64,000 nucleotides of DNA from NCBI GenBank assembly GCA_019055375.1, contig JAHQIW010001909.1:1-64000 (forward strand), in the 5' to 3' direction. Origin of the DNA: Parelaphostrongylus tenuis. Its lineage: Eukaryota; Nematoda; Chromadorea; Rhabditida; Metastrongylidae. Below the pieces are notes generated by a model, which worked only from the letters and a program-made list of their open reading frames with translations, was not told where the DNA came from and did no database searches. Below, in pieces: positions 425-63,175 of this stretch (its first letter is position 1; every line of letters begins with the position of its first letter). The position numbers were made by a program, and so were the translations under genes.

Positions 425-645
425 TGCATGTAGTCTGTCATAAGCACTTATACAGTGAAATACAGTCTATCAGCACTGCAGTCTCGTCAGTGTAAAACGT
501 TCTTCGTCAACTCCTCTGAGTGTAAAATGTACATCCTCGAGGAACGACTGAGCGAAAAGGCACCGTTCAACTGACGAGACTGCAAGGCCGAAACACGTAT
601 AATGCACTGTAGAAGTGCCCATAACAGACCACATTCGCGGGTCAA
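425..645. mobile_element. Foldback element with two divergent hammerhead motifs (family A)
   Basis: The two arms are inverted copies: 'tagtctgtcataagcactt' at the left answers 'aagtgcccataacagacc' at the right, and 'gcagtctcgtcag' at 480-490 answers 'ctgacgagactgc' at 571-583. Each arm carries a hammerhead-like core pointing outwards. The left (- strand) motif is decayed and keeps only CUGACGA; the right one is described separately. The matching element in the other segmental copy is 35150-35380. Confidence 0.7.
565..607 (+). ncRNA. Hammerhead ribozyme motif, family A, slightly decayed
   Basis: Order seen: stem I strand GTTCAA 565-570, core CTGACGA 571-577 (position 7 of the core is free in hammerheads), stem II region 578-589 with a GCAA loop, GAAA 590-593, stem III ACACGTAT 593-600, cleavage-site A at 601, returning stem I strand ATGCAC 602-607. 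Stem II has an A-C mismatch, stem III has one mismatch and stem I has two. It is probably weak or inactive now. Confidence 0.6.
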
Positions 646-899
646 AAATCAGTATCAGTCGTATTCATTTAGTTCAAAAATTCTGACAATTTGACGGAAC
701 TTTTTACGCTACCTGTGCTTCACACTTGACAGGAAACTGACCTTTCGTTAAGTCAAAAACTTTCTGGATTGAGTTACAATAGAAGTGGCCTGATTTAAGA
801 AACTATTAAGTGATAACCATACATTGATACACAGAAAATAATGTTGCGAAGCAAGTTTATTTACATGACCTTTGTTGAATCAGTTTTTTATAATCACTG

Positions 900-3330: not shown

Positions 3331-3420
3331 TTTGTTGTTGCCATGTGAATGATTTGTTACGAAAATGATAGATCTGCTCACTGTTGCGTCCACAGTATCT
3401 TCAACTTTTAGGAGCTAGCA

Positions 3421-5945: not shown

Positions 5946-7344
5946 TTTGGTGTTTACACTTTAGTCCCAAAACTTGTGAAGTTGCCTAATAACTCTCACG
6001 CATTGAGGACCTTTTCAAAAACCGTATTAACGGAATTGCCAAGATTTGTGCATTGGGTGAGTAATTGTTTTGCTTAATGAAAAGCTATCCACACACTCTG
6101 GCTAGGTAAAAATTGAACTCGATGTATGAAACATATTTTTAATTCACCGTTGCAGCGTAATCACATAAGCATTTTAAAAACCAAGCATAGTCTTATCGAG
6201 AATTGAGATTTCGAATAAAATTTTCATTTTCGGTGGAAAGACTCTGTTGAGCAAAAACAACCTTTGAAAAGCTGAGATCAATGCGAATCTCACCGTTCGA
6301 AAAGGGTTAATCATGGAGTCACTTCAGTTTATATTCCAAAATTATTCAAGCTTTGTCGACATTGCGAATGCTCTTCCTAGCTTATGCACCTTCGAGTACG
6401 ACTGTTGTTCTTCTCTCTTTAAGAACTTCTTTCATCGCTTCTGTGCGGCGTTTTGCAAGGTCAGGCATGAGTTCTCAGTTGCCCGTGTCTCGAACGATTT
6501 TGCGTTGGTGTATTAGCCCGAGTGTTTCTAAAGTCAAACAACTCTTCATGACTTTCGGGTTCTCCACTTTCATAGCGCTGACGTGAGGGTGCTGGATAAG
6601 CCGGTCTCATGTATCTTGGCCAATGCTGTTAATGACGGTATCCTTCCATGAGCCGAAGAATGGCTTTAATCCCATTTTTTAGTAGTTTTGAGCTCTCGCT
6701 GTTAAGATGCTACAACCTTGCATCTTTGAGCGGAAATAGAATGTTGCGCGGACAAGGTGATCTGATCACTTGAAAAAATTTGAAACAGCAGTGCTATTCG
6801 TTAGACGGAGCTATTGGTTTATTATAATGTGATCTATTCCATTATGACGCTTCCATATCCACCGCTGCGATTGGACGTCTTGAAATTCTGAGGTGCCATG
6901 AGTCGTTTCAAACCCTCTCACTCTGTTTCATTTTTATCCGTGGGTCTCGTTATAACTTTCTTCAAGTTTCCTTCAAAGACCAATTTTCACTTGAACATAT
7001 TTAATGATCACTTGAAAATTGTATGAATTTTCTATTCCTGTTAAATGTTTTTGAGTTCATAAAGTACGCTTTCACTTCGTCTTTCCCATAGCTCTAAGTT
7101 GGTTTATAAGCAATGAAGATGGTCAAAGCTGGCAGTAATTCATATCTTGACAGCCACATTCGTCCGAACCGGCTTGTGAGTTGTTCGAAAGAATCGATAT
7201 TATGGTCGGTACTTCTGCACTATAAGGGTGACAAAAAAGCCGGTGTCATCTGCTGAACAAGAACATTTCATAGGAGTCATCAGATCGACTATTTTTGAAA
7301 CCTCGCAAAAAACATTCAAAATAATTTCAAAAAAGAATACGCCA

Positions 7345-7393
7345 GGGTCATACACCGGTGTTTCGGAGGTTTCGGCCTCCTCATCAGTGACCC
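7345..7393 (-). ncRNA. Hammerhead ribozyme, family D, intact by inspection
   Basis: On the - strand: stem I strand GGGTCA, core CTGATGA, stem II GGAGG/CCTCC with loop CCGAAA, GAAA, stem III ACACCGGTGT (a perfect palindrome), cleavage-site A (triplet GUA), returning stem I strand TGACCC, which pairs perfectly (6 bp). All residues I know as invariant in the hammerhead core are present. The flank AGGGCTTAATGTGGGGCGG upstream is shared with the copy at 29610-29657. It sits inside the RTE relic region, so it was probably inserted there with a small repeat. Cleavage would fall between plus-strand positions 7350 and 7351. Confidence 0.88.
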
Positions 7394-10639: not shown

Positions 10640-13440
10640 CTTTAGAAAAAATTCTCAGAACTTTTGCACAACCTTAGCTATGATGTACGCCCTCAGCTAT
10701 AGCTTTTCGTACATTACTCCCACCGCGCTGCAGTGATCCAACGTCGCAAATGATGCTGGATGGTCCTAGGACAATTAACGACCGACACTCATCTCACTCA
10801 CTCGCCCCACATGTGAAAATTCATTGCGTAGTAGGCAGATTAACATTAGGAGATCAATAGATGATGAACGGTGTTGGTCATTTTTTGCTCCACAAAATAA
10901 TCGAGTGAATCTAGCAAAGACATATTTTTGGCATAACATCCCTAATTGGTTTTTCGTTATACCAGCAGGTAAATAGCTTTGTATTGTAGAGTGCACTCAG
11001 GTCTCCTCGGAGAGGCATTTGCAACTTGGCGAATATGAGACATGTGAATGTTCACCTTTCAATTTCGTTCTCCTTGTAAAAATCGTATATAAGGAGTAGT
11101 TAGTTTTTGTCTTATCTGATAGTTTCACTTGCAACTGATGTTTATATTTGAACCCAGTGATGTAGAGTGCTGTGCAAAAACGTTTGCGTCAGCCGGGATT
11201 TGAACGCAGATCTTACTCCTTTCGGTGGTGCAACGTTTAGCACATGCTCCGGGAAAGAGTAAGATCTGCGTCCAAATCCCGGCTGATGCAGATGTTTTTG
11301 CACACCATTCTACATCATTGGGTTTATTTGAACATCATGACACCGCAATCGGCGGTCAAGTAAAGATGATTTGCGATTTATATTTGATATAAAACTGAGC
11401 TCCTACCATGTGAAGTTTTCAAACCAAGTTGCTACAAAACTAGTGTGATTCCAAAGACTACTGATTGGGTACCACACAACAATCAACAGAAAATAGCATT
11501 ATGAAACAATTTTATTGACGTGATCTTCAATAAAACAATTTCGTAACAGTATTGGCTATATTTCAGTTGCTCTAATATCGTATTTGAGTACTATTAGAAT
11601 ACTGTAGCAAAGCTGTTCGTCTCTAGAAATTCAACTAAGGCAACACGGAGCAATTTCAACACGGAAGTGCTCATTCAGTTCCATTCTGCGTTCATAAAAA
11701 AACTCGTAATAAGGCGCTGAATCTACAGCGCTGGCCGCTTCGATTTCTCATTCGCCGAACAGAAAGGTGAAAAAGAATTTCTAACCTTTCGAGTCAGAGA
11801 AATTTCGATTTGACTAAATTAAGTGAAGTTTTCAACTTAAGCTAGTACGTGATCACTATGAAAAGGCGCGTGATGAAGCGATGCTTTTCAGAACGATTTT
11901 TACTGACGCTTCAGATGAGTCTGGTAAAAAGAGCTTATCAAGACTAAATTTCCAAGCTATCACGTGCTGCAGATTAAGAACAATTTACATAAATTGGAGA
12001 ACGGATTCCATTTGCGATACTGTTGTAGCCGCGTTAAACGCAGTTCTGCATAGTTCTTTTCCTTGTCAGATCCACCGATGTCTGCTTAGAAGTGTTACTT
12101 TGAATAAGGACAATTTTTTATGACTGAAAATCTGAGATATTGACTGAGTCAAATAAACCATTTATTATGAGTAATTTATTCATTTCATAATTTCTTTTCA
12201 TGAAAAATTTCATTTCATATTAATCATTTCCACTGTTATGTGCTGCAGGGTAATCAAATGAACTTGATAACGAACTGTACTCCATTAGCGAAACTGTCGG
12301 AATAGCATTAAATGCAGTTTTGCGCAGTTCTCTTCCTAGCTAGGTCCACGAAAGTACCTAGCAAAAAGATTGTTAGATAGGTGATCTCTTGCAACTTATG
12401 AGACCTAAGGCACTTATGAATTGGTCACTTGTTATGGGATAAAAATCCTCTAGGTTTTCAGTTGAATCTTTTCAAGGCATTGACAGAAATGAGATAATTG
12501 ATTGAAGAATTCATAACCGTTACATTGACAGAATGAGACTTTGTAATGCGAAATGTACGATAACAAATTTTATTTGCCTGCATATCGTGAAGAATCCGTG
12601 GGAAATAAACTGCATTTCGATAACATCCACATTTACGAGACTCGGAACGTTTGGAAAAATGATTAGAGAGGCCTCAGCTTACTGTCACTTCACTCGCATT
12701 CTCATCAAAGTGCAGTGTATTTTCCATCTTAATGCACCGAACCCCTAATGTGTAGCGATCTTGTGCCTCACGACAAGATATGAGACTTAATACAGTTGCT
12801 TCTACAGCCAGTTCTTGAAGGTTTCTCTCTCCTTTTCTTTCCTAATGGACGATTCTCGAAAGCGTTCACATTCCTCGCTCGTCTCGTCATTTCTTGTGTA
12901 AATATTTGTAGTAGTACTTAATTTTGCTGATAATCGGCCTCCTCGTCACCAAAAAGATTCCATGAGCTTAATAAATTAGGGGCTAATAAAAACTTCAAAG
13001 ATTGTTCAACGAGATTTCTAATTCTTAGAACTTTGTTGCGAAAAACCTTTTGCAGCGAAAGCCGTGCTTTCTTTTTGTCAATCGATATCTGCTTTTACAA
13101 ACTTTCTCTCCAAAGTACACTTGTGATTTCGGCGTTTTGTCGAATGCCAATATATTATCTATGGGAAAATCAGAATTAGTACCTCATCACTGGAAATGAG
13201 AAGGCGGGAACCAAATCTGAGCCACGCCTCTGAGGATTGGAGCATTCACTTAAAATTCTATTCAAAAGGCCTCATCAAGAAGCCTATCATCATTTAATTC
13301 AAATCATTTGATAACAAACCGATTCGCCTTTGATTCCCATTAGAAGTCTCTGTCACAAAACGTGCATCGAATGATTAAGGGTTTATAATTGAGTTGAGAA
13401 CCCGGAAGCCTTGTGATATTAGGTCTCCAACTAGGTTTCC
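10640..13440 (+). other. Upstream module of gene copy 2
   Basis: It aligns with 42985-43600 and 46500-48300 in segment B, sharing for example 'aattctcagaactt', 'tttttggcataac', 'caatcaacagaaaatagcat' and 'gcctgcatatcgtgaag'. Two related sub-blocks, about 11530-12120 and 12240-12800, also resemble the single block at 900-1500 upstream of copy 1. No ORF is conserved between copies. A palindromic SINE pair (11157-11324) is inserted in it. Confidence 0.55.
11157..11324. repeat. Large hairpin from inverted SINE-2 sequence
   Basis: Left arm 11157-11218 ('gcgtcagccgggatttgaac') and right arm about 11259-11324 ('gtccaaatcccggctgatgc') are inverted copies with a spacer of about 40 nt holding 'ggtggtgcaacgtttagcac', which resembles a tRNA A box. 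The right half is a SINE-2 body (compare 26740-26910 and 42740-42935); the left half is its mirror image. It would extrude or fold as a long hairpin. Confidence 0.65.
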
Positions 13441-17343: not shown

Positions 17344-17382
17344 GTGACTGATGTTTCGGCTCTTTTGCCTCTTCAGAGCCGC
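17344..17382 (-). ncRNA. Hammerhead ribozyme motif, family F, core intact
   Basis: On the - strand: stem I strand GCGGCT, core CTGAAGA, stem II GGC/GCC with loop AAAAGA, GAAA, a very short stem III (ACAT), cleavage-site C (triplet AUC), returning strand AGTCAC. Stem I pairs 5 of 6. Stem III has almost no room for a loop, so activity as a monomer is doubtful. It lies in the same orientation as the motif 400 bp away at 16945-16985. Confidence 0.65.
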
Positions 17383-17663: not shown

Positions 17664-18077
17664 ATTTCCAATAAGTTTATTACAAAGAAAAAAGCAACGT
17701 TTTTCAGAGAATGAATAGTAATAACAAGGCAGAAAGTACTACCATAGTCAACTAAGCTGCCAATCATTGCTTTCATTCAGCTTCCGCCACTGAGAGGAGC
17801 ACCAGACCCACTTTCTATCATTGCACCGTTCAAATCAAGATTCAATCGTTAGTACGAATGAATGAGAGGACTGCAATGTCTTTTAGATCTAGACGGTTAG
17901 GAGACGAATGGCTTGAGAAATGAATGCGCTTAGTAGCCCATAGATGATTAGAAGAAAGTGGAGCATATGCGGACACCTAATATTAACCATTGCTTCCATC
18001 GACTGTTTTTAAACCTCGCTATGAATACTCGATATAGTCTGTGAGAATGTTTAAGCCTTTTTGAGGTTGCTACGTCA

Positions 18078-18316
18078 GTGGCTTACTGCGTTTCGGCGGC
18101 GTCACCCGTTTCGTCAGAGCCACACGCTCCACACTGAACCCTACTCTATAGAAGAATTAGAGAGACGTGTTATGTTGATGGCACGTGATTGTGGTTTTTT
18201 ATCAGTGAATGGATTAGGGCTGGTGTGAATTGTAGACGTCCATGCAATCAACTGTTTTGAGTGGGGCAAGTGGCTCTCATGAGACGGTCGATACCGCGGG
18301 AACGTACGCAAGACGA
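18078..18316. mobile_element. Foldback element with divergent hammerhead motifs (family B)
   Basis: Left arm: - strand hammerhead at 18078-18123 with stem I GTGGCT/AGCCAC (6 bp, perfect), core CTGACGA, GAAA, but a short stem III. Right arm: + strand relic at 18270-18316 with GTGGCT, CTCATGA (core changed), a strong CGGT/ACCG stem II and GAAC. Outer flanks are mirror images ('gccacacgctccacact' against 'ttttgagtggggcaagtggc'). The segment B counterpart, 55861-56098, has lost the left core. Confidence 0.68.
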
Positions 18317-18835: not shown

Positions 18836-19149
18836 CAGGAAAAGCTCAATTATAATCAAAATCAATAAGCAATAAATACGAAAATTAAAAAATTAAATAC
18901 GAAAAAGTAGCAATAAATACGAAAAATTCCGCGCATGAAAATCGATGCTATCGCCCTACTTTGAGTAAGCGAAGCTTTTTCAGCATCCATACGAAATGCT
19001 GTGGCATTGGAGCTGATATTCGAATGGGAGTGCTCGATGATCGCGATGTAGCGGGGGGTAAATGCATCTGAAGAAGTTTATTTCATAGTCCTTCTAGTCG
19101 ACTAATTTTAAACCTCGCTATAAACATACAATATAGTCTATGGTAACGT

Positions 19150-19363
19150 TTAACCTTTTCAGGACCGCGGACCCACGGCCTCTACATCTCTGGCTGGCAA
19201 CTTTGGACGATCTGCCCTACCTCCTCTACATGTCTAACCCCCGGCGTGCAATTGTTAGACACAGCACGTTGGGGATTGGAGATGTAAAGGAGGTGGAGTA
19301 GACCGTCCAGAGTTGCCAATTAGAGATGCAGAGGCCGAGGGTCCACGATCGCGAAAGAGTTAA
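19150..19363. mobile_element. Palindromic MITE with TTAA flanks (piggyBac-type)
   Basis: TTAA at 19150-19153 and 19360-19363 bound an almost complete palindrome: 'cacggcctctacatctct' on the left, 'agagatgcagaggccgag' on the right, centre near 'aattg' 19250. The target TTAA and ends of the CCTTTTxxGGACC type fit piggyBac-class MITEs. Other copies: 26050-26265, 56938-57153, 63523-63775. Confidence 0.72.
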
Positions 19364-19386
19364 AGCCTTGTTGAGGATGGCAGTCA

Positions 19387-19695
19387 ATGGCTTGCGTACG
19401 TTTCGGCGGCATCGCCCGCTTCATCAGTGCCACACGCCCCAAACTTAATCCTTTTTTATAGCAGGGATAGGGAGATCTTTGCTTACTGAACGCCTATCGC
19501 GAGGTTTAAAGATAATCAATCGAGAGGATTTTTTCTTACTCACTACCAACCCTAAGCCATCGACTGGAAAGAAACGGTGATGATACAATACCACTTGCTA
19601 TCACCATAACGTCATCAATGCTATAAAATAGGATTCAGTTTGGGGATATATGGCACTAATGAAGAGGGCGATATCGTCGAAACGTACATATGTCA
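19387..19695. mobile_element. Foldback element with divergent hammerhead motifs (family B)
   Basis: The left - strand motif (19387-19433) has GTGGCA, intact CTGATGA, stem II GCGG/CCGC after an A-C pair, GAAA, a defective stem III, then AGCCAT, with stem I 5 of 6. The right + strand motif (19651-19695) has TGGCA, CTAATGA (one core change), stem II GGCG/CGTC, GAAA, then TGTCA, with stem I 5 bp including a wobble. The inner flanks mirror each other ('cccaaacttaatcctttttt' against 'ataggattcagtttgggg'). It lies beside the last visible exon of gene M, probably in an intron or 3' flank. Confidence 0.68.
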
Positions 19696-26495: not shown

Positions 26496-26617
26496 GAATG
26501 TGATACGGGTTCTGTAAGATAATAAATTATAATATAAGACGTGCCCCTGTGGAACTTAAAGTATGCGAAAGCTGTGGTCGCCTTTAATTGAACATCGATA
26601 GGACCTACCGAGGGAGG

Positions 26618-26665
26618 GTGCTACTGATGAGTCCCAATAGGACGAAATAGGCGCCTATATAGCAC
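26618..26665 (+). ncRNA. Hammerhead ribozyme, family C, intact by inspection
   Basis: Stem I strand GTGCTA 26618-26623, core CTGATGA 26624-26630, stem II GTCC/GGAC with loop CAATA 26631-26643, GAAA 26644-26647, stem III 26647-26658 (ATAG/CTAT around GCGC), cleavage-site A 26659 (triplet AUA), returning strand TAGCAC 26660-26665. All three stems pair without mismatch. The sister copy at 53280-53327 has a compensating pair change in stem III. Downstream 'ctcaaaacatgtcatatcc' is shared with the sister copies. Confidence 0.9.
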
Positions 26666-26739
26666 TAGACCTATCGGCTCAAAACATGTCATATCCTTAT
26701 CAGATTAAGTCATTTTGAGCGGGTCTGTAAAAGAGCGGT

Positions 26740-26912
26740 CGATAGCAGAGCTATAGAGAGTTTTATTCACTAAAGGTTCTAACCCATTCTCTAATAGAGT
26801 GAAATGCGGGTTTGAGTTCCGTTTGACGCAAAATTTTACACATCACTCAGCATCATTGGGTACATACAACATTAGATCGCCACTAAAAGCGGTTGAATAA
26901 AACAAATTTATG
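26740..26912 (+). mobile_element. SINE-2
   Basis: Has 'gtgaaatgcgggtttgagtt' (B box), 'gacgcaaaattttacacatc', 'catcattgggta' and ends 'aaaagcggttgaataaaac'. The A box is lost in this copy. Confidence 0.65.
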
Positions 26913-28899: not shown

Positions 28900-30720
28900 G
28901 AGTAGAAGCTTTTGTTACAGCAGTATTCAGAATTTGACTTAGTACAGCATCGTATTTAAAGTGTAGGGGGATTAGTATAACAATATTGCAGGCCAATTAG
29001 GAATCAAAGTAAAGCGACATGAAAATGCTAAAGTACAGAACTGTTTCCACACGGAACTGTAGCAATACGAAACTCCTATAACAGGAACTGCATCAACACT
29101 AAATTGCAACAGTATGAAATTTCAAGAACACGGAAGTGCTGTGGCAAGGGACTGTTTGCGCTTCAATCGCTCGTAAAATCTGTAAGAAGGTCTATGATTA
29201 TTCGGCGCTAATAGTGCTTTGGAATTGTCGCCCGTCACACAGATGACGCAAAGTTTTGTATGTTACAACAGAGAATCCTCTTGAAATTGAGTGGAATTTC
29301 TCCGCTTCAAACACAGGTGACTCCCATAGTGAAGGAAATGTGTTTTAGAAGAAATCTCACTTTGTTGAAATACAGACGTCAGCAAAATGTGCTGCATAGT
29401 CCGGAATCTACTCCCACCTATGCTGCATTGCTCTTATACAATATAAACTAGAGTGCTAGTATAATTCACTTGCAAAAATGCCGTGTTCGTAATAAGTACA
29501 GTTCTCTTTCTTATAAGACACAGAACACTTCTTTTAGAGTAATGTTTTGAGTAAGAACTTCCCAATTAAAATTACTTTGGGGCTTAATGCAGGGCTTAAT
29601 GTGGGGCGGGGGTCACTGACGAGGAGGACGAGCCTCCGAAACACCGGTGTATGGCCCTGGCGTACCAGCCTCGTTTTAGGCTAAAAACATTCTTTTTCTT
29701 GGATAAAATTTCTTCTGAAAGCCCAGGATACGATTGGGTTGCATTGATCTCTTATCATAAAAAAGAAACTGTGCTGCGGAGTTTTGAGATGACCTCTCCA
29801 AACGGAAAAGCAGAAGAACAAGGAAATGGACCATTGAAGTGTTACACAAATGAAATGAGACTTCATACGAAATGCACAACAACATGTTCTGTTTTGTTTG
29901 CACACTGTGGAAATCTTAGGGACGTTTCGTAAACATCCACCGTAAGAAAAATTTGAAATGTTTGAGAAGGTGAGCGAGGAAGCTGTTTGTTCACACATTT
30001 TTTAGCTTGAGAGTCTATTGTACCCATTTCGATAATGTGGCAATTTCACTGAGGTTTGGATTATCTTATTTCACAACAAGATTTGATTTCTTCATGAAAC
30101 TTTTTTGCCTACGATCAGTTTTGGCACGACTGCAATTTTTCTTCCTTTTACTGGTGATCTTTGAAAACATGTCATTACCAACCTTTTTTTTGAACCCTTC
30201 AGCGAAATACCGTAGAAGTTCCTATTTGGGTATCAGTCGACATCTTCATTGGCAAAGATATCAGAGGTGCTCTAAATGTTAGAGAACAGAACACAAGTAG
30301 ATAAACGCGATTACTGTTTTATATGAAATTGTGGCCGGAAATGTTCCGCAGCGAGGTTCTACTTCGTATTTGTTAATCGATATCTCTTTTGCAAATTTTC
30401 CTCAAAAGTGCTCATATAAGTTCGGTGATCTCTCTTCTCCAAATTTTCGTTTTCGAGAGAGTGAGAATTTTATGTCTCAGCATCTGAAACGAGAAGGCGG
30501 GTTTGTAAAGCCGCACCATTTCAGCAATTGTTGCTTTATCTGTTTTCGTTTAGTGGTACCTTACGCAGCTTTATTTTCATTGAGATTTCACATGCACTTC
30601 ATTGCATTATCTTATCAACCCCGGCTCTGGCGAAAGACATTATGTCCTCAACTAAGTTTTCAAATTTGATCCAAGAAATCAAAAATTTATTTTCTCAAGT
30701 AAACGAAACTATCGAACAAC
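28900..30720 (+). other. Upstream module of gene copy 3
   Basis: It is related to 900-3330 and the other modules: 'gcagtattcag...gtacagcatcg', 'ggaagtgctgtggcaaggga', 'tgaaatgagacttcatac' and 'ttgttaatcgatatctc' all have counterparts at the same relative position. A hammerhead element is inserted at about 29585-29670 and a mariner copy at its 3' side. No conserved ORF. Confidence 0.5.
29610..29657 (+). ncRNA. Hammerhead ribozyme, family D, intact by inspection
   Basis: GGGTCA 29610-29615, CTGACGA 29616-29622, stem II GGAGG/CCTCC 29623-29637, GAAA 29638-29641, stem III ACACCGGTGT 29641-29650, cleavage-site A 29651 (GUA), TGGCCC 29652-29657. Stem I pairs over 6 bp with one U-G wobble. Against the 7345-7393 copy, the core differs only at position 7, which hammerheads leave free, and the stem II loop differs, while all pairing is kept. 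Confidence 0.86.
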
Positions 30721-34989: not shown

Positions 34990-37860
34990 TTCGTTACATG
35001 CTTTTTTGTTTATTGTTATGACTGTTGATCCAGTAAACGTGATTATTCCTTCAATAGAATGAATTCACTATCTTGTGCAGCATTTTTCTTACTTTTAGAT
35101 TCGAGTGATTCTTTAGCTCTGGCTCAAATTTCAGTGTGCTTATAGTTATTTTTGAGTCATGCATGTGGTTTGTTATGCGCACTTATATGGTGCAATACAC
35201 GCGTTTCGTCCTTGCAGTCTCGTCAGTGTAAAACGTTCCTTGTCAACTTCTCTGAGTGTAAAATGTACGTCGTCGAGGGGCTGACTGAACGAAAAGGCAC
35301 CGTTCAACTGACGAGACTGCAGGCCGAAACACGTGAATTGCACTGTAGAAGTTTCCATTACAGACTGCAATCATGGGTCAAAAATCAGTATGAGCCATAT
35401 TTGTTAGTATTTTGAAAATTCTGGAAAATTGACAAAAGCTTCTACGCTCCCTGTACGCCACATTTGGCAGGAAACTGCGCTTTTATCAAGTGAAAACTTT
35501 CTTAATTAAATTACAATAGAAGTGGCCTGATTTGAGAAACTGTTAGCTGATAATCATTCATTGATCAACAGAAAACAAAGTTGTAAAGCAATTTTATTTA
35601 CGCGACCTTTGTTAAATCAGTTTAATATAATCCATGCATGAAATTCGCTTGACACATTATTGAATTCAAAGATCAAGGAGAGTAGTGTAGCGAGGCTGTT
35701 CGTCACTCCATGACTCAATTGAGACGACAGAAAAGTGCTAAAGCATGGAATTTTTTCAACACGAAACTATTACAACGCGGAGCTGCCGGGGCTGCTTATT
35801 CAGCTCTAATTATCGCTGGTACAAGACTCATAAGAGGGCCAATGATCACACAGCGATAATACTGCTTTCGATTTATCATTGACGATGTAGACACGATAGA
35901 ATTTCTAATGTTTCAAGTCGCACAATCGTCGCTAACGTTTTGGAAATTGATGGATCTTCTTGATCCACACATGAGGTCGTTTATTACTCAAATGAGACTC
36001 CCAAAAAGAGAGAAATGCATCTCAAGTCTTTCAATCCGTTATTGATGCATGGGTCAGTGAAGAGTTCTCAAAATTCCGACCTTAATAAGCCTTATGCTGC
36101 ACGCAGTTTTATAAACTGGAGAACGAGTGCTCTATTGTTTACGGGAAAAATGTCAGAATCGCATTAAACGCAGTTCTCGTTCATGTAAAGCACAAAGATA
36201 TCTACCCTGTAAACGCTTTTCAGATGGAGATTGTCGGATTACTCCAAGAACTTAGAGTAATGAGTTGGCCAAATTGATCGCTTATCATAAAAAAAGTTTC
36301 GTTCCGCACTTTTCAAGAGATCCTTTCAAATCATCATTGAAAATGAGAAGAACAACAGTTGTGAGACTTCAATATACGAAATGTGCACCAACAAATTTTG
36401 CTTTGTTTGCATATCGTTGGGAGACTGAGGACGTTCTTAAACATACATCTCGTGAGAAAATTCAAACGTCCAAAAAGGCAAAAAAACGATTCCTCCTTTC
36501 GGTGTTTTCAACAAAGCCCACTGTAGTTTCCCACTTCGATACAATGTCAGTTCATTTAAGATGTGGGATCTTTACCTTACGATGAGATCTAGTATTTTCA
36601 TGCAATCATTTGCTCCTCGACTAGTTCTGACATGGTTTCCCTTATGCCTTATCATACTTGTGGATCTTGGCAGTTCCATTACATAAATCGTTTTTGAATC
36701 TTTTAGAAAATTTCTAGAGGTTCCTGTCTGGATATCTAAGCAATTACGACACTGAACAAGTTTAATTGACCGCTCATTAGTAACAATTCAGACGTGAGAC
36801 TTTATTATGCAAAATGTTGATCCCTCCCTCAATAAGGAAGATCTCATGAGCATACTAAATTTGAGAAGCCATTGCGAACATCAAATCTTAACAGACGCGA
36901 TTCTATTTTATAAAGTTTGTTACCAGAAACGTGTCTCAGCAAAAAGTTTTGCTCCTTTTTTGTCTTTCTATACATGTATCCACGGATTTCCTCTCACAAG
37001 TGCACTTGTTGTTCTGGCGCTTTGCCGATTTTGAACTCTTTGCTTTTTAGAAAATCGCAATTTCATATCGCAACATCGGTAATCAGGAAATAGGAATCAA
37101 TCAAGCCACGTCATCTGAGAACTGCCCCCAATTTCTGATATTTATGTTTGATTGGTCTCTTCCACGCAACTTATTGTCATCCAACAGCATGCATTGCACT
37201 TCATTAACCGATTTTCCTGTGCTCCGGCAGAATCAGTTACGAAACGTGCTACAAAAGATCCTAGGTTCTTTCTGATTAGGAAGGAGCAAATGAAAAACCG
37301 ATCTCATTTGCTGGAGAGGAAGTTTTCATAGGATTAATAATAACCATTCGAAGGCTAAGATTTCAGGCACAGCCTAATTTGCTGGTATCCCAAAAAACCC
37401 TTTGTAACGTTGTAGTATCCCGATCAAAAAATGTGTTTTACTCTCCTTCTAACTACATTTTTATCACTCCTATAATTCGCTGGAAGCCAAAAAGTATATC
37501 GATGTGCAGAGAAATTTTCGTAATAATTTAAATGATTATTCTATCTAGAGTTTCTTTCAAAGGCGAAGAAAAATTCTCAATTGAATAACAAAATATCAAT
37601 CGTCCTGCCTCGCTCCTCCTCTGCCACGGTCTCCGCCTTGTCAAATAGTTTGTAAACAATGCTACCAAAAATCTCAAATTCGATCTTATTCAATTCGAAA
37701 TAAAAAAAAGAAATTCAAAATCAATTCAAAAGAACAGAATTTTCAAGTAATCAAACGAATTGCGAAAATTTGAAACTCTTGAAAAATTTAAAGAGCTTCT
37801 AAAACGATTTCACCCCCGTAAAAATGCTGAGTGCCAAATTAGTTGTTGCCCCGTGAATGA
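34990..37860 (+). other. Upstream module of gene copy 4
   Basis: Segmental partner of about 255-3380, with many small insertions and deletions. The 106-codon ORF at 36265-36585 is open only here and is frameshifted in the partner, so I treat it as chance. Confidence 0.55.
35150..35380. mobile_element. Foldback element with divergent hammerhead motifs (family A)
   Basis: The - strand motif at 35190-35232 has intact CTGACGA and GAAA and stem III ACGCGTGT, but poor stem I. The + strand motif at 35302-35343 has GTTCAA, CTGACGA, GAAA, stem III damaged at its last position, A, TTGCAC (stem I 5 of 6). The arms mirror each other and match 425-645. Confidence 0.68.
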
Positions 37861-42984: not shown

Positions 42985-45900
42985 GAAACTTCAAAAAAAT
43001 TCTCAGAACTTATTCCTCAAACATAAGTATGATGTAACGCCCTCAGCATTACCTTTTCATAAATTACGAAAACCAAGTTGAAGTGATCCGACGTCGCAAA
43101 TGATGCTGGATGGTCTTAGGACGATTAGCAACCGATAACACTCGCCACTCGTGTGAAAATCCATGTTGTAGTAGTCGGATTAACATTAGGAGATCAACAG
43201 ATGAACAATGGTGTTGGTCTTTTTTGCTTCAGAAAATTTTTTCAATGAATCTAGCAAAGATAGATTTTTGGCATAACGCCCCTAAATTGGTTTTTCGTTA
43301 TGACAGCAGGTAAATAACCTTGTATTGTACGACTGTACTCAGACGCCTCTGTAATCGGAGAGGCATTTGGAACCTGGCGAGTATACGACATGTGAATGTC
43401 CACCACTTAATTTCGTTCATCTTGCAAGCTTCGTAGATAAGGACGAATTGATTCTTGTCTTGTTTGATAGTTTCACTTGTAACTGATGTTTACTTTGACA
43501 TTTAACTGAGCTCCTACCATGTGAACTTTTCAGATTAAGCTGCAACAAAACTAATTTGATGTGAAAGAGTATTGTTTGAGTAGCACACAACAATCAACAG
43601 AAAATAGCATTATGAAACAGTACTATTCACGTGATCTTCAATAAAACAATTTCACATCAGTATTGACATTTTGCTTGGTATAGTATCGCATTTAAGTACA
43701 AGTAACCGTAGTAAGATTTTTGGCTCTCACTGATTCAACTAAGGCGACACCGGCAGTTACGAGACGAAAGCGCTTATTCAGTTTCGCTCCGCGCTCATCA
43801 AAGAAATTCGTAACAAGGCATTAAATCTACAGCACTCACTGCTTCGATTTCTCATGTGCGGAACAGAAAAGAGAAAGGAGATTTTCTTACCTTTCAAGTC
43901 AGGGACATTTCGCTTTGAATAAACTATGTGAGATCTTCAACTCAAGCCATTACGTGATCACTACTACGTGGCAAGGCGCGTAAACAAAGATTGTTTTCCG
44001 AAACGACTTTTACTGACGCTTCAGGTAAGTCTGGTAAAAAAGAGCTTATCAGACCAAATATTTAAGCTATCACGTGCTGCAGATTAAGCAGATCAACAAA
44101 AATTGGAGAACGGAATTCCATTTGAGATACTGTCGTAGCCGTATTGATTGCACTTCTCTGTGGTTCTTTTCTTTGAGAGATCCACCGATGTTGTTTAGAA
44201 GTGTTATTTTGAGCAAGAACAACTTTTCATGATTGAAAAACCTGAGATACTGATTGAGTCAAATAGATTATTTATTATAAGCAGACGACATAACGGATTT
44301 TTGAAGCAGTTGCAGAAATAAGTGAAATCTTTTCAGAGTAGCCGATCCTCTCGGGGGCCCCTACCATCTCCCCATACTGAGGTAGGCGACAACGAACGAC
44401 ATCGCCGTCATGTGAAAAATCACAAAATCGGCAATTTTCGACGCTCGATTGCTCATAGCTGCTGTTGTTGTAATATTATATTTTATTTCAAGTATTTTAT
44501 CAAGAGCACTCTCAAATGTCAATATATTTCACAATTAATATTTATGAATTTATTTTGTTTGCACATGTCGAGAAATTCCAAAAAATCGATAGTGTTCTAA
44601 TGAAAATCGATTTAATGACGAACTTCGAACAATCCATAAAGGTGACTAAGATAGCAATCACTGTCACATCAGTTGTGGTCTTAACATCGTCCACTGCACT
44701 TTCCCATATCGACGCTGCCAATCCTATAAACTCTGTCACTTTTGGGTCTCATGATAAGACCTCAGGCCTTATACAGTAATTTCTGTCGACAGTTCTGGAA
44801 CGATTTCCCATCTTCTTTTCATACTAGTGAATTCTCAAAAGCTTTCCCATTTCGCACCTGTCTCGTTATTCCTTCAGGGTGAATCCTTCTGCATAAGTTC
44901 TTTGTTTCAGCTATCATTAACCTTTTCGTCAAAGTAAGAGACTTTATAAATAAGAGAAATTAAGAAGAACATTAAAGCCTAGCAAACGTGGTTCCTGCTT
45001 GTCTCAGATTTTTTGCAAAAATCGCCTCACATCTAAAGTTGTTCTATCTCAAAATTCCATAGACGAAAGCGCTTTGATTATTGAAGAAAAGGACGGACGA
45101 ACACGCGCTATTTTGTTCGAACAACAAGTAATAATAAAAGCAGCAACAACTTAGCATCTCTTCTCAGCTTCTGTCCCGTCATTATTGTTATATATTCATA
45201 CCGAAAAGATCGGTTTCAAATGGGATTTTCAACATCACACAGTGATCTTTCGAAGCAATGCACGATAGCGTCAGAACAAGAGCCACTAAGAATTTGAGAT
45301 AAGAAGAAGATGTGTTGAGAGTAAGAATAAATAAAAGTTGAATGAAAATTATTACATCAATAAAATTACTAAAATTACCATGTTACTATAAGTACTGGTT
45401 TCCACTGCCGACCCCTCTTATCAATGGAATTTTAGGACACTTTTTGTCAATCGATACTTGATTCTACAGATGTTCTTCTACAAAATCACCTGCAATTTGG
45501 GCCCTTTGGCGATAGCGAGTAGCCTTATTTGAGAAAGCCGACATTTTATGCTGCAGCACTAGAGATCACAAGGCGGGAACTTACTATAAGCCATGCCACT
45601 TGAGGAAGTGGCGCATTCACTGAAAATTTTGTTCAAGTGCTTCTCTACACATTCCATTATCATTCAACATTTGACCAGCACTTTGATTCATCAGTCGAAT
45701 TTCTCGCACCTCGGGAGTAACTGTCAAAAAGCATGCTTTGTAAGATATTGGTTCACGACATACGAGTTGGGAACCCCTGGTGTCAATGCTCAATTACTAT
45801 CCTATTTAATTCTTGAAATAACGAGATGGGAGGTCAAAATTAGTTCTATTGCCAAGCTTTCACGAGATCATCGTAAATTTTCACTATGCAAATTCGATGG

Positions 45901-50769: not shown

Positions 50770-51665
50770 TCTAGTGCTAGAACCTATGGAAAGACTTACT
50801 AAGTCTTACAGCGGCATCACTTTGAGCTTGATCAGAAGTATACTCATTTAACCGCTAAGAAAAGACCATATCTGGTATCTGAAGTCAACTGGATGGCATC
50901 GAGAACAGATCATTTTTTGATTAACATATCTAGATATTCAGAGCCCAAGTGGTATAGAATCACTGGCAACAAATGTTCGTTTCTCCAAAGATGTTTCTAC
51001 GATTGCTGTGGAAAGCGGTTTATTAGAAACAGAAATCAAAAGCTTTCGCATACTATGACTTTCTTGAGACGCTATATAATGTCTGAAGAAGCATGTTTAG
51101 AGGGATAGGACGGTCCTTGTTCTTGTGGAGAAGCAAAAATGCCGTGTGACAGATTCTCAACACTGCACTAAACTCTAGTGGAGTTCAAAACATCAAAGCA
51201 CTACAGCCTACGCATCCAATTCTCTTGGTTACACAATCACAGCAGTGGCTCAGAGCTGTAAGAACATAAAGCGTTGATATAAATTCGAAAATTTATTTAA
51301 ATGGAAACTCCAGCTTTAAAGAAATTACGTAGTTGATTAGGCTCCACTAATGTTAACATGTTCGCCACAAGTGATGTCCATGAGTCATTTTGAGGCTTCC
51401 AAAGCAGCGGCTCAAAATCACTCAGAGACCATTCCATTACGATGGTTCATTAGAGCAAAAAACTGCTCTCCTAAACTTTTCTTGACCAGTCCACAGTTTT
51501 CTAGAAAACAGATAGCGTGGTGGATATCGACCATGAGAAGATGTTACCCTCAGAAAGCCTCAGTCATCACTCTAAAAAAAAACTGTTTTGGACGGACTCA
51601 TTTTGTAGGTATGAACTATTGCGAACCTTTATTTCGAGTGTTCTACTGAAAACAGCTCAAATTCA
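50770..51665. other. No gene recognised (segment B only)
   Basis: Insertion relative to segment A. The ORFs at 50893-51108 and 51350-51649 have no family resemblance that I can name. Confidence 0.35.
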
Positions 51666-51728
51666 GTAGATCTCTTCATCATTATTTGAGCCAACATGTC
51701 ACGTGGTCTGGTAATGGGCTCTTGTACA

Positions 51729-51770
51729 GCTCGATACACTGTTTCGGCCTTACAGTCTCGTCAGTTGGGC
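51729..51770 (-). ncRNA. Hammerhead ribozyme motif, family A, stem I weakened
   Basis: On the - strand: GCCCAA, CTGACGA, stem II with GTAA loop (one A-C mismatch), GAAA, stem III ACAGTGT, A, TCGAGC. Core intact; stem I pairs 4 of 6. The mirror copy at 52227-52269 pairs 6 of 6. Confidence 0.68.
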
Positions 51771-52226
51771 AGAACCCGTTGTCTTCCAAACTTTTTAGCC
51801 AATCCTCTCGCGACCTTCACTCTCTCTACAGAGAGGTGTCGAAGACGTACGATTTACACTGTAAGTCAAGTGAAATTACCACCGAATTCACAGTGTTGTA
51901 CACTCGATTGCTTTTTGGCTAGTATTTTTATCATATTATACCTTTGTTTCGAGTGTTTTATTAAACCAGGCCACATGACATGTTGGCTTAAATTATAATA
52001 AAGAGATCTAGTGAAATTTGAGCGTGGTTCTTAACAAAACACTAGAAATAAAGGTATAATTTGATAAAAATACCAGCCTAAGAGCAATGGAGTGTACAAC
52101 ACTGTAAGTTCGGTGATAATTTCACTTGAATTGCACTGTAAATCGATGTTCTTCGATACCTCTCTGTAAGGAGAGTAGGGACTGTCGAGAGGGATTGGCT
52201 AAAAAGATTGAAATACAACGGGTTCT

Positions 52227-52269
52227 GCCCGACTGACGAGACTGTAAGATCGAAACACGTGTATCGGGC
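52227..52269 (+). ncRNA. Hammerhead ribozyme, family A, core intact
   Basis: GCCCGA 52227-52232, CTGACGA 52233-52239, stem II 52240-52251 (two outer pairs, one C-A mismatch, U-G, GTAA loop), GAAA 52252-52255, stem III ACACGTGT 52255-52262 (perfect palindrome), cleavage-site A 52263 (GUA), TCGGGC 52264-52269. Stem I is perfect over 6 bp. Confidence 0.82.
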
Positions 52270-52687
52270 TGTACAAGAGCCCTTTACCAGGCCACATGAC
52301 ATGTTGGCTCAAATAATAATGAAGAGAACTATCGTGAACGTTAGTGAACATTAGTCAGCCATTCTTCAGCTTCTCTGTGGTGATATCATGAACTGAATAT
52401 AGTTTTCTCCGACTTCACTGAACTCGATACAGTATCGCAAGAACGACCACATTCTTTTTGATATACTGATTAGGTAGCTCAGCGAAATTATTATTCCTCA
52501 ACGTTGTGAATATATAGGAGAGACCACACCAGTTGAAGCAATTCCTTCACTTTATTACTTTTTGGTCGATTTTTTTTAAACATCGACAAACACATTGAAT
52601 ATAAATAGTCTTTAAGAATGCTTTAGACTTTTTTCGATGTTGTCACGCAACTATTCTTCGTCGTCCTATCTCTATGATAGAGGGCAA

Positions 52688-52730: not shown

Positions 52731-53115
52731 AAATGAAATATAACGTTACAGCCTCAAAAAAAAGGCCAAAACATCCTCCACTGAGTAATGTGTAAAAAAC
52801 ACTCTCTTAAACAGGTTTTTTTTAATATGCGCTATATCGAAGCAGGTGGACAATCTATGTAAAGATGACGCAATAGAATACCAAAAATGATCTATAAGAT
52901 CAGTCAAACTTAGATGTATAGTTTACTCGTGATTCAAGGAATGGGCTCAGAAGTTGCCCCAAACCCTGATGCTTCTGGGGGAAACCGTTCAGGGATTGTG
53001 TAGCATCATATTAGGTATACAAATATGACCTACATTCCAACTTTTCTTTTAGACCTTGCTCAAACAATAATAATCTGACAAGGGTAAAACATGACTTTGA
53101 GCTATTAAGGTCTAA

Positions 53116-53163
53116 GTGCCATACAAGCTCCTGTTTCATCCTAACGGGACTCATCAGCTACTC
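53116..53163 (-). ncRNA. Hammerhead motif, family C, stem I degraded
   Basis: On the - strand: GAGTAG, CTGATGA, stem II GTCC/GGAT (closing G-U), GAAA, stem III ACAG/TTGT around GAGC, A (GUA), TGGCAC. Core intact, but the two stem I strands hardly pair. Confidence 0.62.
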
Positions 53164-53279
53164 GTCTGTCGGTCACTACATTGTCACGTAAGAATCATCT
53201 GACTTGCGGTGATTCATTACTTGGCGTCGATTCCTTCATAGGGGATTACTGCCTCAAGCGATCGACTGAACCAAGAACG

Positions 53280-53327
53280 GTGCTACTGATGAGCCCCCGT
53301 AGGATGAAACAGGCGTCTGTATAGCAC
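53280..53327 (+). ncRNA. Hammerhead ribozyme, family C, core intact
   Basis: GTGCTA 53280-53285, CTGATGA 53286-53292, stem II GCCC/GGAT (weakened, two good pairs), GAAA 53306-53309, stem III ACAG/CTGT around GCGT 53309-53320, A 53321 (GUA), TAGCAC 53322-53327. Stem I perfect. Stem III carries a C-G pair where the 26618-26665 copy has U-A. Confidence 0.82.
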
Positions 53328-53734
53328 TTAGACCTGACGAACGGTTCAAAACATGCTAAATCCTTATCAGATTATATTACTCTGCCATTTTTTACTGTGT
53401 TCATCAAGAATAAAGATATGCAAATACTCTTTTTCGTTTGACAGTGATCAAAAACGTTATTTATTTATTGTTTTTCATATACGAAATATTTCATATGATG
53501 GTTTTTTGTAAGGATCTGAAGATGACGACTTTTTGTTTCAAAAATACACCATTTTTGGTGAAAAATAAGGCGGGAAAGTTTGAAGCCTCCTGAAACCTCC
53601 CAGCTCAGCACTTTTGAAACGTTTCCGATCGATTTTGCAACATGAAGTCGAGCGTTACCACGCAGCAAAATTACAAAGTTCGTGCCGTTTTGGCATTCTA
53701 ATATGATTTTTGCAATGTGATTCCCTAATAACCT

Positions 53735-54880: not shown

Positions 54881-54885
54881 ACTTT

Positions 54886-55135
54886 GGCAGCTGGCGTTTC
54901 GACAGTTTTACCTTCTTCAGAGCCCAGAAAGATCAGATTGCCCTGACTATCAACTATAATCGCTGGACCGGAAGACCACGACAAAGATGACACAAATTTC
55001 TTACCGCGAGCAGCGTAAACAATTCCTTTCTTCCAGAGATGAGGCCTACTTACTCGTTGCTGCTATTTATGAGCTTACACGAAGTTTATAATAGTTGTGA
55101 CTGATGTTTCAGCCCTTTAGCCTCTTCAGAGCCGC
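54886..55135 (-). mobile_element. Direct pair of family F hammerhead motifs
   Basis: Two - strand motifs in the same orientation. 54886-54926 has core CTGAAGA and GAAA, stem I 4 bp, and a weak stem II. 55097-55135 has core CTGAAGA, stem II GGC/GCT, GAAA, ACAT, C and AGTCAC, with stem I 5 of 6. Segment A has the same pair 400 bp apart (16945-16985 and 17344-17382). Confidence 0.6.
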
Positions 55136-58913: not shown

Positions 58914-59024
58914 CTAAAACATTAGACATCAAACTTTGGCTAGAATTACTTCAACGATAAAATCTACAAAAATTCTTCACTTCACAGCTTTTTTAAAAGT
59001 GTTACGACGTTATAATTATAAATC

Positions 59025-60065: not shown

Positions 60066-60683
60066 CGAAAAAAATCTGTACCTTCTCTTACGATTTCCGA
60101 TATCGGTCAAATCTCGGCAAAAGACGATTCAACGACTTCACTTTTCCTTCAGAGCCATTTATCCACTTATACAGTAAAGGTCACCGATGTGTTATCACAT
60201 TTCATTGAAACATTTAACAAGATAAATGGCGCTGAGAAAGAAGTCGCCGAAATGTTAGCCATCGATTTCGATAGCAAAAAGCGATATTTTGAGCACATTC
60301 AGTTCTAATACTTGCTTGTTTTTTTCTAATCATGAAAGAATATGAAGCCAAAAGGAATCACAGCGATGACCAATACGCTTGAAATGATTCTAAAAGGTGA
60401 AACTAGTTCCAAAATCAACTCACTGGAAACGACTCGTTTCTAGGACTTTTCACAGCGCTACTTTGCCTCAGTTTCGTGGAGAAATCCATATTTTCTTCAT
60501 GGAAGATCTTAGCAGAATCCTTTCGTTTGATACGTTTATGATCTTGAGAATTTTCATGCTGGAATCGTATCTCACTGGAAGTCGTCGATGCTCTGCAGAT
60601 AATTTGATAATTATCTTCTAGAAGAAAAAAGAAAAAAACATTAAAAGAAATTCAGTTCTATGATAAGACCGAAAATTTGAAGC

Positions 60684-63175
60684 TCAATCGACGTAAACTA
60701 CATACTCAACAGATTTTACTCTCCGGAAGAAGGATTCCTCGAAGAAATCCTTAGGCTGTTCTTCCTCGTTTTCTATATTTGCTGATGTTGGCGTCTAGAA
60801 ATGAAAGAACCGCAGAATCTGACTTTCACCAAAAACGGCAAAGATATGAGAAAACACTTACAGCTTCCGGAAAAAAGACCCTATCCAAATATTCGGTCCC
60901 TGATAATTCGCTATCGTCTTTCTCCATTACGCTGTCGTCATTCACAGAAAGTCGACGAACAGATCTGGTCATCGCCGTTTTTCCAGAAGAGTTAGTCTCT
61001 TCTACAGCCTGGAAAAAAATGAATTCAAGAGAACAGTGTGAAGAGATCTACAAAAGTATAGAAAGAGTGAATAAGTGAAAAATGAAATAAAAGTGGTACT
61101 GATTGCAACTACAATACCAGCTATTGAGATGACCAATAAGTGAATGAGGTGCAAAACTTTTGCGTCGGGCGGGACTCGAACCTGCATTTCACCCTACCCC
61201 GGAGAGCGTGCTCTATCCTCTGCACCACCGATGCCTGTTTTGCTACCGCTCTTTCTACGTAACGACGCATCTATCTCTTAACATCATTGGTATATTTATA
61301 ACATCATACCACCGCTAAAAGATTGAATAAGAAGAACTGTAAATATGTATTGGTCCTCCGAAATGGTTTGCTGCCTCATCGTGGCTGGGAAGTGTTCTTG
61401 GATTCTGGACAGCGAAATACAGCGGAGGGTTCAACCTCCCATCAGGGCCATCAACGCTGAGGAGTCCAGCATTTCCACTCAGAAAGCCCAGCTATGAGCT
61501 GATAGTACAGGAATGACCGCCGTCTTGGTAGCTGCTAGTCGCAAGGTGGTGATCTCCCTCTGATCCACGAGGACCGGAAACTGCTCTGATGTGGTGAAGG
61601 CTTGAGGAAACCCCAGCTAGGCTTACCTCGAGACTCCGGAAACAAGACAGCCAAACCAGCGCAGTTTGCCTGTGCTGGGGTTCGCCCTATCAGTGAAGAC
61701 GAACCGTCGAAGTGACCAAGCATCCAAATAATAAGTAATAATAAGTAAACAAGTGAGTAGGTGGCGAGATTCGTCGGTGATTAGTAATATAATATTCAAC
61801 GATGCTGAATGATACGCGGAACTATCGAAAAAGATACTTCGGTGGCTTATATCGAGGACAGAATGTTAGCAGAGCGGTAGTCTCGGTGGTGTAGTGGTAA
61901 CATATGTCCTCGGTGAAGGTAAAACGCGGGTTCTACCCCACCTAGAGTCAATAATTTTGCATAAACTCTTCATCACTTGATATATAATCATAATACATGC
62001 ACTGTTATAAGAGCAGTTGAATTGAAAATTCTCGTAAATTTCGATGCCATCTATTCAGACGACGGAGAACTGAATAACAAGTAGACGAGTAATAAAGTAA
62101 TAGGATAAATAGGTAAGGTGAATAGATAGTTTTACACTTTATTTATCAGCCATCACAGTGTTTTTTTCACTGTGTGAATCCCAGCACTTCTAGCGTTAGA
62201 TTCGTTTTTCCGTCTTCTCTATTGAACATCGTAGAATATGATTGAGCGAATCTCCTTGCAATCTCGAGGATAGCCTGGCCGTGGCGTTCCATAAGGCGTT
62301 GATGTTGACTGCCGAAGAGAGTTCGGAGGGTGGAGCTCCGCTCCACTGTAAAGGCGGACGAAATAAAATAAAAGAAAAATAAAAATACTAGCCATGTGCA
62401 ATCGACTCGTCGGTAGTCACTGCAATGTCCGGTGATCATGTCACTAGGCATGCAGTGATATGTTATCCGTGGTAGGTGAGTTTTCACTTGACACGAGGTG
62501 GCAACGTGTTCGTCGACGATTCCTCTATGTAAGAGGGTCCTCCCCGAGAGGGAATGGCACAGACGAGGCTGCAAGGCCGAAATACGGTGTATTGCGCTGT
62601 CTAAAGGCCCATGAAAGACCTCATAAAAAGGATCAAGGATAAGCTCTCGGCGTCGATCAATCCTTGAGGGATGCGCCATGCATTCGTCTTCAATCTTAGC
62701 TTCGTTTGAGGTGATCTGAATGCATATCTGGCCTTTACAATGACTCGCGGTGGCCTCCCGCTGTACCGAGTCAGTGCTGCTTATCCTCCCAGACAAGTCT
62801 GAGACCTGTCTGGTAACCAATCTACCGACCTCGAAAGGATGAATGGCTTGGTGGCCATGGGCGCGAGATCGAACCATCGATCTTTTGTGCGACGTAGTGC
62901 ACCTCTAACCACTGCGCCATATGCGCTCTTATTGTACTGTATAATGCCGTAAAGCCTCATAAAAGGCTTGAAATATGCTGTCAAGTGATCAATATGTGGA
63001 TGAAAATGACGCAATGGAGTATAATTAGCGTCATATGAGATATATAGCGTACCTCGGCTTTCTCATAGGATTTGTTCAGATCGGAAGAGAAGCATTTTAT
63101 GCCAAAGAAGTCGTCGTCGTCCGCTAGATTTTTCGACATTTCGTCGCCTAAAAGCTCAGCAAAATGCTTGAAAAC
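60684..63175 (-). CDS. Gene N, copy B (3' part)
   Basis: The - strand exons match copy A: about 63175-63053 (KHFAELLGDEMSKNLADDDD then FFGIKCFSSDLNKSYEKAE), 61008-60862 (RSVRRLSVNDDSVMEKDDSE then LSGTEYLDRVFFPEA) and 60794-60684 (TPTSANIENEEEQPKDFFEE then SFFRRVKSVEYVVYVD and stop). All are open with intact splice sites, so both copies may be functional. Several amino acid changes are conservative. The 5' part lies to the right or was not recognised. Confidence 0.6.
61140..61265 (-). mobile_element. SINE-2 head with good Pol III boxes
   Basis: On the - strand: ATCGGTGGTGCAGAGGATAG (A box) and CAGGTTCGAGTCCCGCC (B box), then GACGCAAAAGTTTTGCAC. A SINE-2 tail in + orientation follows on the right (about 61280-61345), so two copies lie head to head. 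It is the best preserved tRNA-like head in the window. Confidence 0.72.
61360..61740. repeat. Dispersed repeat, partner of 23690-24080
   Basis: See 23690-24080; many small length differences exist between the two. Confidence 0.5.
61760..62040 (+). mobile_element. tRNA-like SINE-2 unit, single copy
   Basis: 'tggtgtagtggtaacatatg' and 'acgcgggttctacccc' are the A and B boxes. Partner of the doubled unit at 24090-24530. Confidence 0.62.
62167..62390 (-). repeat. Recurrent peptide-coding fragment, copy 6
   Basis: The - strand reads FYFISSAFTVERSSTLRTLF then GSQHQRLMERHGQAILEIAR and ends LTLEVLGFTQ. It forms the C-terminal part of a 236-codon ORF whose N-terminal part is translated SINE-1, so that ORF is not a gene. 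Confidence 0.45.
62554..62597 (+). ncRNA. Hammerhead-like motif, family A, core U4 changed
   Basis: CAGACGA 62560-62566, stem II GGCT/GGCC with a GCAA tetraloop (62567-62578), GAAA, stem III about 62582-62590, A. Stem II is the best of family A, but stem I and the core are damaged. Confidence 0.5.
62630..62935 (-). mobile_element. SINE-1, best preserved copy
   Basis: On the - strand: ATATGGCGCAGTGGTTAGAG (A box) near 62930, GATGGTTCGATCTCGCGCC (B box) near 62870, body with GGTCGGTAGATTGGTTACCA, tail near 62640. About 300 bp. Confidence 0.78.

Follow-up and report, generated by a model that had tools for sequence, protein, structure and literature searches.

Hammerhead motifs in the window and in the genome

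The window analysed here is a stretch of 64,000 nucleotides from Parelaphostrongylus tenuis (contig JAHQIW010001909.1, positions 1 to 64,000). It contains a series of hammerhead ribozyme motifs, many of which are the strand-opposed arms of inverted-dimer elements, a point missed by the initial annotation of this DNA. These short, non-coding elements often comprise a pair of arms inverted head to head, and a type I hammerhead is predicted in each arm. Most of the window is made up of two diverged copies (about 75-90% matches) of a segment of approximately 35 kb, located at 267-26480 and 35000-64000. Since this segment is present twice and several sites come in pairs from the opposite arms of a single element, the hammerhead sites are not independent of each other. 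The motifs had been described as comprising at least five stem families and hence as more than one repeat copied many times. At least four stem families are readable from the sequence; the diversity thus stands, while the sites depend on each other through the duplication and the paired arms.

A strict descriptor, consisting of the hammerhead core and three stems, gave six matches in the window. In 100 dinucleotide shuffles the descriptor averaged 0.11 matches and never exceeded 1. The matches show the type I architecture, with the CUGANGA ... GAAA core and stems I, II and III in type I order, and include five of the eight best sites listed previously (7345-, 26618+, 29610+, 52227+ and 53280+). 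Covariance models had been proposed earlier as a check on window and genome. The only window match of Rfam RF00163 was 26618-26665 with 29.5 bits (E 0.0034), below the cut-off of 34, and no hammerhead of the window reached the gathering score. A window-free model (A4), which contains no row from the window, was built on 36 sequences of the genome (32 of 61 hammerheads and four RF00163 loci). This model revealed nine window sites at E <= 0.01, among them the listed sites 51728-, 52227+, 26618+ and 53280+. The sites at 29610 (E 0.14) and 7344 (E 0.68) were weak under this model because they belong to another family; 18078 and 17344 gave no match at E <= 1. A broader model (R1), which includes seven window rows and is partly circular for the window, found 13 sites at E <= 0.01 including seven of the eight listed ones. 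It missed 17344, of which only the duplicate 55093- was detected. Consequently, six of the eight best sites are well supported by the descriptor or the window-free model, 18078 is fair and 17344 is a relic.

The core word CTGANGA by itself was not enriched (42 occurrences versus 37.5 expected, a count reached by 27 of 100 shuffles). This lack of enrichment would agree with chance matches to a short motif, an explanation of negligible probability that is refuted for the main sites by the excess of full motifs and by window-free E-values as low as 1.5e-12, and that may apply to sites known from the core word alone.

The window had also been regarded as unusually dense in hammerheads. The comparison set comprised six stretches of 10 kb, taken at round coordinates from five further long contigs; these contigs were already known to hold hits, and the set is therefore not fully blind. 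The window-free model detected nine sites in the 64 kb of the window and seven in these 60 kb. Sites of model R1 at E <= 0.01 numbered 13 and nine, clusters of family B or C element sequence eight and eight, and strict descriptor matches six and two, respectively. A density specific for this locus was rejected, as the stretches on other contigs were similarly dense. The hammerhead repeats are spread genome-wide over many contigs and are not peculiar to the window. Naive scaling from the six stretches leads to approximately 56,000-72,000 hammerhead sites per genome, a figure valid as an order of magnitude only. In the genome (481.5 Mb) RF00163 gave at least 31 matches at E <= 0.001, 20 of them above the cut-off, with 74 of 119811 candidates scored; no RF00163 match was obtained in 14 control genomes. 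Eight of the genome matches share one score of 34.5 bits and perhaps represent a young family.

Anatomy of the inverted dimers

Hammerhead pairs not more than 500 bp apart were collected from the window and the six stretches (R1, E <= 0.03). All six pairs diverge: 35194-/35302+, 51728-/52227+ and 53115-/53280+ in the window, and L072 8124-/8371+, L074 6635-/6898+ and L074 9653-/9926+ elsewhere. The next-closest pair, 52227+ and 53115- (845 bp), faces each other but belongs to two separate elements. Several elements were self-inverse on self-comparison. The unit of family C has the order M, hammerhead, E, and its arms run outward from the centre. One arm stops at about u319 or extends some bases into the following unit, and the second arm stops at about u274; the corresponding ends of family B lie at about u285 and u231. 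The features of the window are listed in Table 1.

Table 1. Hammerhead-bearing elements and related features of the window
Feature	Position	Strand	Remarks
Family C inverted-dimer element	51625..52332		long end 51625, short end ~52332, centre ~51964; self-inverse 51667-52331 at 84%; units -u319->..->u295 / +u230->..->u276
Type I hammerhead, left arm of family C element	51728..51770	-	window-free model 50.6 bits, E 2.3e-10
Type I hammerhead, right arm of family C element	52227..52270	+	window-free model 59.1 bits, E 1.5e-12; descriptor
Additional copy of 3' segment E (hairpin region), palindrome centre of family C element	51965..52055	+	
Target-site duplication of family C element	51613..51626 (left), 52326..52339 (right)		12/14 identical
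Family B inverted-dimer element	53030..53375		left arm to u279 (long end), right arm to u237 (short end)
Hammerhead, left arm of family B element	53115..53163	-	window-free model 21.6 bits, E 0.0067
Hammerhead, right arm of family B element	53280..53328	+	window-free model 46 bits, E 3.6e-9; descriptor
Single family B arm, inverted partner none seen	26607..26757	+	contains best Rfam hammerhead 26618-26665 (29.5 bits)
Hammerhead in single family B arm	26618-26665	+	window-free model 49 bits; descriptor; dimer fold
Old C-related inverted dimer	337..634		self-inverse 404-658 at 71%
Hammerhead in dimer 337-634	565-608	+	window-free model 38.7 bits; relic near 490 (-)
Segmental duplicate of 337-634	35090..35365		hammerheads 35194-35227 (-, partial match) and 35302-35344 (+)
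Family A hammerhead	7344..7393	-	stem III CACCGGTG; descriptor; dimer fold; window-free model only E 0.68
Family A hammerhead	29610..29658	+	descriptor; window-free model only E 0.14
Family D hammerhead, decayed	18077..18123	-	R1 24.6 bits, own row inside model
Family D relic	19386..19433	-	R1 E 0.09
Family E relic	55093..55135	-	R1 E 0.0093; segmental duplicate is 17344-17382 (-)
C-related relic, core broken	62557..62598	+	window-free model E 0.0018; sequence
Family C arm fragment, no recognisable hammerhead	44326..44543	-	

A single-arm query, which favours one long end but not the nature of the second end, was used for the genome, and 40 of 5337 candidate loci were scored. These comprised 26 head-to-head loci, 13 loci on one strand, one otherwise mixed locus and no tail-to-tail locus. 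Both ends could be defined in 19 inverted loci, each of which combines one long with one short end differing by about 50 nt, and neither two long nor two short ends occurred; in the remaining seven inverted loci an arm is cut short elsewhere. For families C and B together 27 of 33 copies are long plus short and none has two long ends, with cut-offs set after the values had been seen and with copies found by queries that are themselves long-plus-short dimers. The short end of family C falls at u264-287 in 16 of 18 copies, and nine of the 13 one-strand loci start at the hairpin of segment E (q272-286). The inner arm ends of family C are anti-correlated, and in 16 of 18 copies their sum lies at 512-537; such sums would be expected from one hairpin E at the centre. 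Four of 18 inner ends lie at u204-210, and the predicted ribozyme cut is located after u208. Direct tandem units precede the inversion at loci C2455, C4727, C4804 and C1106; C2455:227213-228337 contains approximately 2.5 direct tandem units followed by an inverted arm. These units suggest a multimeric or circular template.

Families A, B and C have a palindromic or almost palindromic stem III. The predicted dimer folds of 26618+ and 7345- contain two hammerhead cores joined by the palindromic stem III, with -40.1 versus 2 x -10.2 kcal/mol for 26618+ and -48.9 versus 2 x -16.7 kcal/mol for 7345-. The single strands of both sequences do not adopt the hammerhead fold. According to these calculations the hammerhead is predicted to pair as a dimer via stem III. 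Covariation was evident for stems I and II, with 46 cells changed on both sides; the score of 0.427 (shuffled 0.174) was reached in none of 500 shuffles. Of the 61 genome hammerheads, 37 entered the alignment together with seven window rows (family C, 26 of 32; family B, 11 of 29 usable ones); the genome rows were picked by eye, mostly omitting decayed ones, and the result holds for the better-kept copies. Segment E of family C is predicted to form a hairpin, with the short end located at the loop edge, and family B gave a similar predicted hairpin. In 31 long arms 85.6% of the cells of hairpin E pair. Covariation as a proof of this hairpin was dropped, the signal being weak.

Target-site duplications were evaluated at 17 family C and 13 family B loci, excluding L010 (a duplicate), L015, L040, L052 and L066. 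A score of at least 9 was obtained for 14 of the 30 copies compared to 0.8% of 870 mismatched flank pairs. Four loci (L019, L028, L018 and L038) carry 12-13 identical duplicated bases, and the length of the duplication varies among copies. At L031 and L038 a few bases matching the start of the next unit are found between the end of segment E and the duplication, as would fit a start of synthesis inside an RNA that extends past E.

On average, the two arms of a copy resemble each other more than the arms of different copies. The identity within and between copies was 0.878 and 0.813 for family C (maximum under random pairing 0.841) and 0.791 and 0.774 for family B (maximum 0.788; 300 trials each). 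F-F, T-T and F-T comparisons in family C gave 0.818, 0.809 and 0.813, respectively, which does not indicate two separate arm lineages. In a midpoint-rooted tree, in which the bootstrap was not settled and the arms of many copies remained unresolved, both arms fell into the same half for 17 of 18 loci, with L029 straddling and L009 and L010 counted as one insertion. Well-supported sister arms were found at L024, L038, L034 and L026. At the duplicated locus L009/L010 the F arm groups with F and the T arm with T. Based on the identity within copies, the tree and the pattern of L009/L010, the mirror image most probably arose at insertion from a single source and was not passed on as two arms. Neither the arm identities nor the arm tree supported propagation of the palindrome as one unit.

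Proposed insertion mechanism and its alternatives

With moderate confidence we propose that the head-to-head hammerhead repeats arose by copying of RNA and were integrated by a Penelope-like (GIY-YIG) retrotransposon of the same genome, the mirror image likely being remade at each insertion. Transcripts of tandem or circular units would be cut by dimeric hammerheads, as suggested by the palindromic stem III. The enzyme would cleave the target with a stagger of about 9-14 bp, and both target 3' ends would prime complementary DNA (cDNA) synthesis on RNA of one source. Synthesis may begin at two neighbouring sites, one at the hairpin E loop immediately 3' of the ribozyme and the other at the 3' edge of the hairpin, and both cDNAs would extend toward the ribozyme-cut 5' end. 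The cDNAs would join at E because their ends carry this self-complementary hairpin, so that a single E would remain between the inverted arms. The Penelope protein from Anolis cleaves and extends both strands, starting at two adjacent internal sites that bound a 'tail' (PMC11167929). Extension of two strands from two sites in this manner would directly explain one long and one short end. A further role of the hammerhead in integration is conceivable, although we consider it rather doubtful: its cut would set the RNA 5' end, and every cDNA would end in a self-complementary hairpin which joins the cDNAs or primes the second strand, so that each insertion becomes a new mirror image. If the hammerhead does play this role, the genome would hold tens of thousands of frozen products of the reaction.

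Which enzyme might act as partner was approached through GIY-YIG frames in the genome. Out of 1723 candidates 150 were scored, with open frames of up to 902 amino acids. The frames were scored for GIY-YIG, and their likeness to the hammerhead elements refers to the head-to-head layout, that is to frame positions and orientations, only. Neighbours within 6 kb (n = 22) were arranged head to head in 20 cases, directly in two and tail to tail in none. The same head-to-head layout is described for rotifer Penelopes (PMC3846280). No overlap between hammerhead or element places and GIY-YIG places was noticed by eye in the top-scoring samples of each. A GIY-YIG element is named here as a candidate partner.

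Several observations weigh against the proposed mechanism. Sixteen of the 30 copies have no duplication scoring at least 9, and 13 of the 40 scored loci are one-stranded. The core is intact in only 16 of 32 family C arms and 18 of 30 family B arms, and for the decayed site 52227+ the hammerhead is not the best predicted dimer. Hairpin E showed one doubly changed pair in the 31 long arms, fewer than the average shuffle. The anti-correlation of the inner ends (r = -0.93) partly reflects ambiguity, because they lie in a segment complementary to itself. Only 20 of 34 arms in family C and four of 30 in family B have their sister arm as best match. Gene conversion between arms could also make them alike, although the arms of the duplicated locus L009/L010 stay apart. 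In Anolis, ribozyme mutants left insertion in vitro unaffected, which argues against a needed cut, and the start site was the same on both strands as far as seen (PMC11167929).

Two-ended priming with joining at E is our choice, and self-priming is its main rival, possible in our view but improbable. One cDNA from the long start site would fold back on hairpin E and prime its own second strand, which would halt about 50 nt short of the target and yield the inverted arm. This is consistent with the tendency of the arms of a copy toward a common source and with the single E with its hairpin fold at the centre, and self-priming was suggested for rotifer Penelopes from inverted junction palindromes (PMC3846280). 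It does not account for the constant second end of family C at the hairpin loop, nor for one-strand copies beginning at this hairpin.

Ordinary animal retrozymes, in which direct tandem repeats give rise to circular RNAs and the inverted layout is a by-product, appear unlikely. The unit of approximately 285-320 nt, the type I hammerhead and some direct tandem units fit this explanation, as do the animal repeats of 150-450 bp with longer duplications described in PMC7229834. Against it stand the predominance of head-to-head dimers (26 of 40 loci) and a stem III of the minimal palindromic kind. A term search of PMC7229834 gave no occurrence of 'head-to-head', and for 'invert' every passage listed contained 'invertebrate'. 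Very unlikely is a foldback DNA transposon similar to miniature inverted-repeat transposable elements, cut and pasted as a whole palindrome with incidental hammerheads in its inverted repeats: inverted arms, lack of coding sequence and many copies agree with it, but duplication lengths are variable, the arms do not form two old lineages, the outer ends are unequal in 19 of 19 loci and direct tandem units occur inside four loci.

The completion of integration, the frequent inverted repeats and the need for the ribozyme are questions left by the Penelope papers PMC11167929 and PMC3846280. Many minimal inverted dimers with readable ends, duplications and centre would make these questions countable, and the exact positions of RNA 5' ends and of cDNA starts can be predicted from them.

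Relation to known elements and further observations

The layout is the known Penelope-like one, here in the form of tiny non-autonomous derivatives. Rotifer Penelopes may have an inverted shorter pseudo-long terminal repeat (pLTR), an optional tail on one inverted pLTR, target-site duplications of 8-10 bp and junction palindromes (PMC3846280). The elements thus resemble the Penelope/Poseidon type (Pen2/Pen3 of Adineta vaga) in the head-to-head inverted repeat, the tail at one end, the junction palindrome and the short duplications. They share with the Anolis element PAc the two adjacent start sites of reverse transcription, which are proposed here and described for PAc, and a hammerhead, which in PAc is located near the junction of pLTR and open reading frame (PMC11167929). 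In contrast to Penelope-like elements, the units measure only about 285-320 nt, no reading frame was found in the window copies, candidate places number thousands per query, and the arms were tested here against propagation as a unit. Seven window frames of at least 120 amino acids were considered as possible coding remnants. Six of them were scanned with Pfam and gave no family above the cut-off; therefore the window copies are non-autonomous at best. None of the six scanned frames combined a telomerase-like reverse transcriptase with GIY-YIG in a single open reading frame. The elements are probably best filed as non-autonomous Penelope-like derivatives.

According to PMC7229834, animal non-long terminal repeat retrozymes are likewise small non-autonomous repeats with a type I hammerhead, and some copies here contain direct tandem units. 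Unlike these retrozymes, the present elements occur most commonly as inverted dimers (40 loci scored) and are known from DNA alone. The same paper describes the satellite hammerheads of newt and axolotl, which also have a very short palindrome-capped stem III and cleave better as dimers; these satellites are direct tandem repeats, whereas the present elements are dispersed inverted dimers. The initial assignment of the hammerheads to the Penelope or retrozyme kind is supported. Among the literature matches listed, judged by title and start of the abstract, there was no report of small hammerhead inverted dimers in nematodes.

Further self-inverse repeats are located at 11136-11337, 19149-19364 and 63522-63780; no hammerhead was found inside them, and they perhaps represent other similar families. 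The nematode origin read from the DNA alone was confirmed by a reverse transcriptase frame elsewhere in the genome (contig L033), which is 100% identical to P. tenuis KIN20_027010, with 98-99% identity to other P. tenuis matches; the source is a strongyloid (Strongyloidea). Two proteins annotated in the shrew Sorex fumeus (P0051 and P0084) share 63-70% identity with this retroelement protein of the nematode, for which parasite contamination or transfer may be the reason. The window also contains a tandem repeat at 24092-24428 (two copies of period 172, 92%), accompanied by a weak match resembling a tRNA at 24376-24446. Finally, a tRNA-Pro gene or pseudogene with a GGG anticodon, barely above the Rfam cut-off, is located at 61161-61234 on the minus strand.

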